From: Desulfomonile tiedjei
GTDB taxonomy: Bacteria > Desulfobacterota > Desulfomonilia > Desulfomonilales > Desulfomonilaceae
DNA: 38,606 bases
Assembly (NCBI GenBank): GCA_020722215.1
Contig: DYLG01000007.1
Coordinates: 1-38,606, forward strand
Reading direction: 5' to 3'
The position numbers and the translations under genes are program-made. The notes under the pieces were generated by a model. That model worked only from the letters and a program-made list of their open reading frames with translations, was not told where the DNA came from and did not search any database. Positions 1,992-7,420 of the stretch are shown here, in pieces (within the stretch, counting starts at the first letter, position 1; every line of letters begins with the position of its first letter).

Positions 1992-2225
1992 TAATGCTGC
2001 GGGCCGAGGAGGTATAATGGACCCCATAAACTGGACAGGAGGTTAAGGTGGAAAAGCCGACCTTGGTGATGTAGAAACCTCCGAGGGGATCTTCACGTCG
2101 GACGGGATCATGGAACACAAATAAGTCTCAGATTCAGTTTCACCCAATCATCCAGGCTACCGCAGGTTTTAGGTAAGGGGCCTTTCTTCCATGGCAGCCA
2201 ACGGCCCAAGCTGAGGTGAATCCAA

Positions 2226-3411: not shown

Positions 3412-3609
3412 ATGTCGAGAGACTGTGGAGACACTCCAATACTGAAAGAGTATTCCAAGCCTGTGATAGAAAAAATAGATTTGACCGCGGAGGAGATGCT
3501 TGTGGATTACTGCAAGACGGGGAATACCGGAGGGAAATTCCCCAAACACTGCACCCCCTGGCACGGAGGCGGCGGGCACTGTTTTTTTCGGAGTCCCACG
3601 CGTTCGTGA
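3412..3609 (+). CDS. Putative RiPP precursor peptide, 65 aa (MSRDCGDTPILKEYSKPVIEKIDLTAEEMLVDYCKTGNTGGKFPKHCTPWHGGGGHCFFRSPTRS)
   Basis: AAAGGAG ribosome-binding site at 3398-3404, ATG at 3412; charged leader-like N-terminus (YSKPVIEKIDLTAEEML) followed by a Cys/Gly/His-rich C-terminus; sits between a radical SAM/SPASM gene and an HPrK-like gene. Confidence 0.7.
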   Translation: MSRDCGDTPILKEYSKPVIEKIDLTAEEMLVDYCKTGNTGGKFPKHCTPWHGGGGHCFFRSPTRS

Positions 3610-5860: not shown

Positions 5861-7420
5861 TCATTCGCCCCACCGGGACCGGCTCTGCTCGGTGGCTGCG
5901 CGGAACGTGGCCTCACTCTCCATGCGCGCTATTCGCTTATCCGTCGATTTAGCATCATAATGGGACTGGATCTTTCTGCACACCACATCCTTCACGGACT
6001 GCCACGAGCAAAACGCGGCGGTCTTGATCCGACCGGTGTCAACGTCTTCGTATGCAAATACCGCAGGGCAGTCATGCAGCCGCGCGTCCTCGAGCCCGCC
6101 TGTGTCCTCGTAAGGAATCGTCATCAGGGTCAAGACATGCTTGAAGGAGCTTCTCTCCTTGAGAATCCGGTCGATCTTGCGGCCTCGAAGCAGATCGAGC
6201 AGAGCCAGCATGCCGTTGAGGAAAAGGGGCTTTCCGAAAATGTTGCTCAAATGCAATGCACGGGCAAGGACGAGGACCATGCGGCTAAGCACTGACAAAT
6301 CGAAGATTTTTCGCCTCAATCCATGCTCCGGCAAAGCAGCTTGTTTTTTCGTCAACTTCGAGTCAAGGCCGCGAAGGCTTACAAGGAGATCCGATAGGGA
6401 AGTCTTCAAATAATGCGAAATCGGCCTGTAATTGCTGCCGTCCGAAACAAGGAGCGTGGCGCTCTCACAATTCGGGTGCGAACCCCCGAGAGTCTGGCGT
6501 CCAAAGAAACGAGAGAGGACTTCAAACTTCATCATGCCAGTGGGAACGAACTCGACTCCCGGAACAAGCCGCTCGAACACGTTTTCCACGCATTCCGTGG
6601 TGGTGGGCTCAAGCTCTACTGAGCCCTGTTCCCAGCAAGGCGTGAGCGGGACGAAGGCCCACACGGAAACGTGTTCCTTGTAACCGTGAACGAATTCCAT
6701 CATCTCGACCATGTTGTCATCGTTAACTCCCACGGCCAGAGTGGTAATCACCGCGAGTTTGTTCACGCCGAATTCAATCACGTTGTCAAATGCCCGTCTT
6801 TTCACGGCAAGCGAGTTGTCCCCGCGCAGAGTGCGGTAGATCTCAGTGCGAGTGCCGTCCAGGCCGAAGTTCACCTGAACGCCCAGCGAGCAGAGTTCGC
6901 GGCAGAAATTCCTGTCGGCAAGCTTGATTCCGTTGGTAAACAACTGCACCTGGAAGCCGTAAGAGCGGGCAAGGCGGACAATCTCCAAGAAGTCCTCGTG
7001 AACCGTGGGCTCGCCGCCGAAAAAACACATGTTCGGTTTGGGCTCCGCGTCTTGAAAGTGCCTGAAGATCTTGTCAAAGTATTCTATCGGCGGCTTGAAC
7101 GTGAACCCCATGGATTCGACGTACGCCAGGCAAATGGGGCATCTCTGGTTGCAGAGATTGGTCACGTCCATCGCCACCGTGTATGGTTTGGTGTGGGCCT
7201 GATGATCGCAGCTCGCACAATTGAGCGAGCACCCGGTGACTACAGGTTCCCGGTACCCCGAAATGTCCCTTTTCCAGCGCCATTTTCTGGCGTCTTTGGA
7301 GACGAGAGACGCAGTTCGGCCGCAATCGCGGCAGAACTTTGCAAAGTAAACGTTATTATTGCGGATTTCGTACGCGGCATCCGTTGGACGACCGCATTTT
7401 TCACAGAAGCCGAGTTTCAT
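5861..7420 (-). CDS. Radical SAM protein with N-terminal Zn-ribbon-like cysteines; COG1964 / tetraether-synthase (Tes)-like layout
   Basis: N-terminal CEKCGRPTDA...CRDCGR; VTGCSLNCASC; CNQRCPIC radical SAM motif; FFGGEPTVHEDF; C-terminal LHDCPAVFAYEDVDTGRIKTAAFCSW resembles the conserved C-terminal Cys region of COG1964 proteins. Confidence 0.75.
   Translation of the reverse strand: MKLGFCEKCGRPTDAAYEIRNNNVYFAKFCRDCGRTASLVSKDARKWRWKRDISGYREPVVTGCSLNCASCDHQAHTKPYTVAMDVTNLCNQRCPICLAYVESMGFTFKPPIEYFDKIFRHFQDAEPKPNMCFFGGEPTVHEDFLEIVRLARSYGFQVQLFTNGIKLADRNFCRELCSLGVQVNFGLDGTRTEIYRTLRGDNSLAVKRRAFDNVIEFGVNKLAVITTLAVGVNDDNMVEMMEFVHGYKEHVSVWAFVPLTPCWEQGSVELEPTTTECVENVFERLVPGVEFVPTGMMKFEVLSRFFGRQTLGGSHPNCESATLLVSDGSNYRPISHYLKTSLSDLLVSLRGLDSKLTKKQAALPEHGLRRKIFDLSVLSRMVLVLARALHLSNIFGKPLFLNGMLALLDLLRGRKIDRILKERSSFKHVLTLMTIPYEDTGGLEDARLHDCPAVFAYEDVDTGRIKTAAFCSWQSVKDVVCRKIQSHYDAKSTDKRIARMESEATFRAATEQSRSRWGE

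Follow-up and report, generated by a model that had tools for sequence, protein, structure and literature searches.

A stretch of 38,606 nt from Desulfomonile tiedjei (the window; contig DYLG01000007.1) carries, between genes for a SPASM radical SAM enzyme and an HprK-like kinase, a short open reading frame whose product looks like a peptide precursor. Which kind of peptide this gene encodes, and what the neighbouring enzymes would do to it, are the questions considered here.

The Precursor Gene and Its Relatives

The frame opens with an ATG at 3412, ends with a TGA at 3609 and encodes 65 aa (MSRDCGDTPILKEYSKPVIEKIDLTAEEMLVDYCKTGNTGGKFPKHCTPWHGGGGHCFFRSPTRS). It has a good Shine-Dalgarno sequence (AAGGAGACGAGTC-ATG) and is situated 106 nt downstream of the SPASM radical SAM gene and 10 nt upstream of the HprK-like gene (Table 1). 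Three of its Cys residues (C34, C47, and C57) lie in the C-terminal half, as the preliminary description had stated, and the fourth, C5, is in the leader. The core quoted in that description had the correct residues but stopped six residues early, missing the RSPTRS tail; the C-terminus reads ...CFFRSPTRS.

Table 1. Features of the window assigned to the operon and its upstream border.
Feature	Coordinates	Strand	Residues and remarks
IS-end-like repeat, 55 bp	2011..2065	+	occupies the place of the RRE (PqqD) gene of relatives
Radical SAM/SPASM maturase, 359 aa	2226..3305	+	C39-x3-C43-x2-C46; SPASM C255, C273, C310, C313, C319, C322, C341
RiPP precursor, 65 aa	3412..3609	+	leader 1-33 with YSKPVIEKIDLTAEEM; core from C34-K35; C34, C47, C57; C-terminal Ser65
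HprK-like (PEPCK/HprK fold) peptide kinase (predicted), 298 aa	3620..4516	+	H142, G157-x5-K163-T164, D179; E180 replaces the usual Asp
Signal-peptidase-like (S24/S26, archaeal type) putative leader protease, 155 aa	4471..4938	+	S33, H72, D91 kept
SAM-dependent methyltransferase, 279 aa	4925..5764	+	44-47% identical to methyltransferases of related two-rSAM cassettes

Curated-family searches recognised the neighbouring enzymes and returned nothing for the window precursor (0 families; no NCBIfam model covers it), and among 32 family members a single one weakly matches a curated precursor model, StsA (E=0.0027). Direct protein searches with the short precursor had no success in viral contigs or plasmids, and the kinase gene proved the better bait. 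With it, the same cassette was found elsewhere in the phylum (297 genomes), a small ORF of common plan standing beside each kinase gene. A scan of 85,462 species, one genome per species, with a narrow kinase alignment gave 80 loci, a few of them on the same contigs. Their record titles name Acidobacteria, Nitrospirae, Nitrospinae, Desulfobacterales and other Deltaproteobacteria, Myxococcales, Omnitrophota, Aminicenantes, Actinomycetes, Chloroflexi, Methylomirabilis, KSB1, Aerophobetes, WOR-3, and others, and the precursor relatives are spread over more than 10 phyla. Close orthologues of the window cassette were absent from 42 genomes of the same class, which hold only distant cassettes of 23-37% identity.

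An iterated precursor profile detected 93 significant ORFs in these loci, 90 of them distinct after removal of duplicates. A separate profile search of 396 genomes added 19 precursors; some of these belong to a second or third locus of their genome and have no kinase gene close by. Six precursors (L165, L167, L168, L169, L172, and L173) have neither a kinase nor a maturase gene in the vicinity while the cassette is elsewhere in the genome, and modification in trans is therefore likely for them. The consensus is [Y/W]-x-K-P-x-[I/V/L]-x-x-V-x-L-x-P-E-E-A-V-L-x-x-C-K-x(10-13)-C-x(4-6)-C-x(3-4)-G-S. In 89 aligned relatives, Pro and the first Cys are invariant (89/89 each), and the Lys (87), second Cys (86), and third Cys (84) nearly so.

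An HMM was built from the 89 relatives with the window copy left out, against circularity, and run on all 905 frames of the window. It matched the 3412-3609 frame at E=1.1e-10 (37.1 bits); the second-best frame reached E=0.09, and 2000 shuffles of the window peptide gave at most 11.8 bits. The match and the shuffles show that the frame is no chance ORF, and it is almost certainly a RiPP precursor of this family. The window member is among the more divergent, with TAEEMLVDYCK, nine residues from C2 to C3, and no Gly-Ser end. The existence of the gene, claimed in the preliminary description, is thus borne out by frame, Shine-Dalgarno sequence and HMM match. The proposal of a precursor with a recognition leader also holds: the search for short ORFs with this leader type near SPASM genes, suggested there as a check, yields about 110 relatives in which the leader (YxKPxIxxVxLxxEEAVLxxCK) is conserved. 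That description overlooked the existence of relatives, the conserved C-terminal Ser/Thr and the signal-peptidase-like leader protease.

The Operon and Its Enzymes

The window operon runs in the order SPASM radical SAM, precursor, HprK-like kinase, signal-peptidase-like (SpI) protease, and methyltransferase, the genes of the last three overlapping slightly in operon-like fashion. No exporter was identified within it. The maturase shares 45-54% identity with its counterparts in copies of this operon elsewhere.

In an alignment of 52 kinases the His, the P-loop Lys, the following Ser/Thr, and the first Asp are invariant (His142, Lys163, and Asp179 in the window). The next Asp is found in 51 of the 52 rows, the window row alone having Glu (Glu180); the same exchange is seen in the genome's second copy and in L042/L044. 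H142, K163, and D179 correspond, by alignment and not by structure, to the His-Lys-Asp-Asp motif, with Glu180 as its fourth member; the motif is complete in 51/52 rows. In the kinases of lasso peptides this motif is reported to be essential (PMC9266682). The window kinase is predicted to have the PEPCK/HprK fold, since its model (pLDDT 91.7) matches PEP carboxykinase and HPr kinase structures and a search with its sequence profile brings up HprK structures at E=0.001. We rejected an ordinary HPr kinase as its identity, as the protein does not match the HPr(Ser) kinase model.

The Ser, His, and Asp of the SpI-like proteins are invariant in 20 sequences, and Ser33/His72/Asp91 of the window protease form what we take to be the pattern expected of archaeal-type signal peptidases. 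The match to TIGR02228 is weak (36.3 bits, cut-off 51.85). It is quite likely that the SpI-like protein acts as leader protease.

In relatives (92 loci) the order is RRE(PqqD)-rSAM-precursor-HprK-SpI(-nucleotidyltransferase). Well-flanked loci, with at least 2.2 kb before and at least 2.5 kb after the kinase gene, number 65; these have a rSAM gene in 63, a precursor in 63 (plus that of L096, found afterwards), PqqD in 62, SpI in 60, and a nucleotidyltransferase (Pfam NTP_transf_5) in 27. L036 and L050 are examples with every operon gene and a precursor ending in Gly-Ser. In L040 the SpI forms part of a fusion with a methyltransferase, and in L036 of one with an acetyltransferase. Fusions of rSAM and HprK occur in L048 (7819-9828), L164 (5227-7257), L166 (5336-7348), and L170 (5463-7460); these cassettes have several rSAM genes and come from genomes of the window's own family and class. 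Exopolysaccharide genes of XrtA/PEP-CTERM type (ATPase, chain-length/tyrosine kinase, regulator, glycosyltransferase, and export protein, each in 6-9 of 92 loci) recur as non-core neighbours. The second HprK-like/SpI pair of the genome is located at the end of a contig (L035, 7944-8890, contig C236), its precursor being lost beyond the contig edge and, like its maturase, lying on a different contig. Elsewhere in the window (5861-7420, reverse strand), beside lpxB, a radical SAM protein resembles Tes (tetraether lipid synthase) and TrsS, with scores well below the cut-offs (138 of 450 and 140 of 490 bits, respectively).

The Missing RRE and the State of the Window Copy

No RRE gene turned up in the window, and no match in the genome passed the cut-off (assembly 82% complete). 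The 55-bp repeat that stands in its place recurs exactly at the ends of contigs C113, C107, and C94, and C43 and C111 hold diverged copies. Either the RRE was removed by an insertion element, or the repeat marks a misjoined contig; neither would affect the operon downstream.

The lack of a recognisable RRE, the IS-end-like repeat at its position, the replacement of Asp by Glu180, and an atypical C-terminal tail could also mean that the window cassette is decaying and its pathway no longer works. We consider this unlikely. All five frames are open and tightly spaced, and the catalytic residues of the rSAM and SpI enzymes are kept; Glu for Asp is a mild change that L042/L044 and the second copy of the genome share; and an incomplete assembly, with a contig that may be misjoined at the repeat, offers another account of the missing gene.

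The C-terminal Ser/Thr

Every one of the 90 distinct precursors ends in a hydroxyl residue (Ser in 86, Thr in 4), whereas among small ORFs of the same loci 11% end in Ser and 5% in Thr. On a quick kinase tree the ending switches among Gly-Ser, other Ser, and Thr at least six times, and always keeps the hydroxyl. Apart from the last position, the 89-sequence alignment has no conserved Ser/Thr column, so that a fixed internal phosphorylation target is unlikely; the beginning of the core, too, lacks a conserved Ser. Of the 19 extra precursors, 18 end in Ser, although the profile that found them includes the last columns and is hence not a fully blind test of the ending. The remaining one (L174, 7877-8494) is the sole family-like precursor ending in Tyr.

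In the family, the HprK-like kinase is likely to phosphorylate the precursor C-terminus. For the window copy this step is somewhat favoured, with less assurance than for the family because the RRE gene is missing, Glu180 is present, and the Gly-Ser ending is lacking. The +80 Da (phospho) shift listed in the preliminary description is an apt thing to look for, since an HprK-like kinase gene is adjacent.

Relation to Known Systems

The predicted SynChlorMet system (NCBIfam ScmC, HprK-like; ScmE/ScmF, rSAM/SPASM) shares the HprK-like kinase, SPASM rSAM, and PqqD with the present family; it has two rSAM enzymes and the window operon one. The window kinase scores 31.3 bits against ScmC (cut-off 125), compared with about 151-304 bits in true ScmC loci of the same phylum, and the single rSAM scores 80.6 and 78.4 bits against ScmE and ScmF (cut-off 400 each). 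The window precursor is of the EEAVLxxCK/C-terminal Ser family, whereas SynChlorMet candidates have C-x-x-G repeats, lack EEAVLxxCK, and end in Asn, Arg, Pro, or Gly. Membership in SynChlorMet was rejected on both cut-offs and precursor type.

Ten loci from genomes with ScmC over the cut-off, that is, true SynChlorMet cassettes, served as a control. Most have PqqD, two rSAM genes, HprK, and SpI, often with a nucleotidyltransferase, and none of their seven precursor candidates, picked by eye from the pattern, ends in Ser/Thr. The C-terminal Ser/Thr is therefore no by-product of having HprK and belongs to the present family, not to all HprK-rSAM cassettes. The SpI and NTP_transf_5 genes and the small C-x-x-G precursor candidates of the SynChlorMet cassettes (L200-L208) are not mentioned in the literature searched.

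Linear polyphosphorylated peptides (LPP) of Bacillota share an SpI-like protease and an HprK-like kinase with the window, the RRE and nucleotidyltransferase with its relatives, and a similar [Y/W]xxP leader; in the window the SpI is recognised by the weak TIGR02228 match and its Ser/His/Asp. A discrete RRE, as in LPP loci, was found neither in the window nor, over the cut-off, in its genome. The LPP core genes include no radical SAM enzyme, a term that does not occur in the paper, and the family is reported as restricted to Bacillota (PMC13381572). Phosphate is placed on Ser3 in LPP rather than on a conserved terminal Ser, and the LPP leader motif YxxPxVLxHQxIxFETxxS is not found in the window leader (YSKPVIEKIDLTAEEML). 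The XrtA/PEP-CTERM exopolysaccharide neighbours resemble the capsule-locus setting of LPP (PMC13381572). Precursors with an LPP-leader-like FET motif stand beside the same enzymes plus rSAM in L042 (9571-9735) and L044 (7848-8051), a possible link between LPP and the rSAM-HprK precursor family.

Phosphorylated lasso peptides (paeninodin/PadeK, ThcoK; PMC9266682) have a conserved C-terminal Ser, which in the window is Ser65, an HprK-like kinase, and a similar YxxP/WxxP leader. In contrast to them, the present family has a Cys-containing core and a SPASM enzyme, and no lasso cyclase or B2 protease is among the window operon proteins. Sactipeptides and ranthipeptides, like the window, have a SPASM maturase beside a Cys-containing precursor. 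To our knowledge, neither a kinase nor an SpI nor an invariant C-terminal Ser belongs to these families. The HprK-related kinases A and B (TIGR04352, TIGR04355) are weakly similar around the P-loop; of the 52 aligned kinases, 50 match TIGR04355, the window kinase at 25.8 of 200 bits, far below the cut-off. No publication on the combination of rSAM, HprK, and RiPP, or on SynChlorMet, was found in open-access full text. The family is unnamed in the literature searched; its component parts are known RiPP parts.

Proposed Pathway and Alternatives

The gene, its family, the operon and the conserved residues are observed directly, and we infer each chemical step, and the order of steps, as follows. 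The YxKP leader would recruit the precursor, in relatives through the PqqD-type RRE. The SPASM enzyme would act on the Cys core, where C1 (of the near-invariant Cys-Lys), C2, and C3 would most likely form thioether cross-links; thioethers are rather favoured here, but the type of cross-link is a guess because it is based on Cys content. The HprK-like kinase would use ATP to phosphorylate the hydroxyl group of the terminal Ser, or of Thr in a few members; PadeK and ThcoK modify the last Ser of lasso precursors in this way before these are processed (PMC9266682). The SpI-like protease would cut off the leader like LppS, which in LPP biosynthesis does so with the help of the RRE, LppK phosphorylating Ser3 (PMC13381572). 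A tailoring enzyme would complete the product, a methyltransferase in the window and a nucleotidyltransferase, acetyltransferase, or methyltransferase in relatives. A single RiPP family uniting rSAM modification, C-terminal phosphorylation, SpI leader cleavage, and tailoring is reasonably probable.

Some HprK-like RiPP kinases act away from the C-terminus: BsfK phosphorylates Ser3 of its core (PMC10368454), as does LppK (PMC13381572). The kinase of this same RiPP family might thus act elsewhere or on an intermediate, with the C-terminal Ser/Thr needed for something else: the nucleotidyltransferase could form an ester or phosphodiester on it, the protease could recognise it, or it could be the point of attachment to a carrier or glycan. 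The nucleotidyltransferase genes of the well-flanked loci, and the lack of a terminal Ser/Thr in the seven putative SynChlorMet precursors despite the HprK there, would suit such a tail. This reading seems improbable beside C-terminal phosphorylation: no other Ser/Thr column is conserved in the precursors, and the terminal Ser-to-Thr swaps fit a hydroxyl acceptor.

Consumption of the peptide for a small redox cofactor, in the manner of PqqA or the mycofactocin precursor, is very unlikely. It is suggested by the maturase, whose nearest NCBIfam relatives are the heme b/heme d1 and mycofactocin rSAM enzymes, and by the usual PqqD partner, but the maturase misses all curated cut-offs by far. Cofactor precursors keep fixed modified residues, whereas the cores here, 20-30 aa long, contain two to three Cys separated by variable sequence; a peptide product agrees with the leader protease gene and with the several precursors per genome seen in related loci. 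The remaining candidate is a metal-binding mini-protein with a C-TPW-H-GGGG-H-C site, an arrangement that the preliminary description had named as one option for the core; in its favour is the Cys/His spacing, which is peculiar to the window copy. It was rejected, and its probability is negligible: relatives keep the Cys but neither the His nor the Gly run, and leader and operon are of RiPP type.

Implications

If the RiPP pathway proposed above is true, rSAM cross-linking is joined with C-terminal phosphorylation and SpI leader cleavage, chemistries so far known separately, in one operon, which occurs in many uncultured phyla. The chances are about even that a class exists in more than 10 phyla whose products combine rSAM cross-links with a C-terminal Ser/Thr that is phosphorylated and, in many members, nucleotidylated as well; the RRE-rSAM-HprK-SpI operon making them often lies by exopolysaccharide genes. 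The rule is testable, namely that the last residue is Ser/Thr and the next gene an HprK-like kinase, and about 110 precursors form a ready list for study. SynChlorMet, with the same enzymes and another precursor ending, is a natural contrast for site choice by the kinase. The phosphorylated tail may serve to anchor the peptide to some other molecule on the cell surface.
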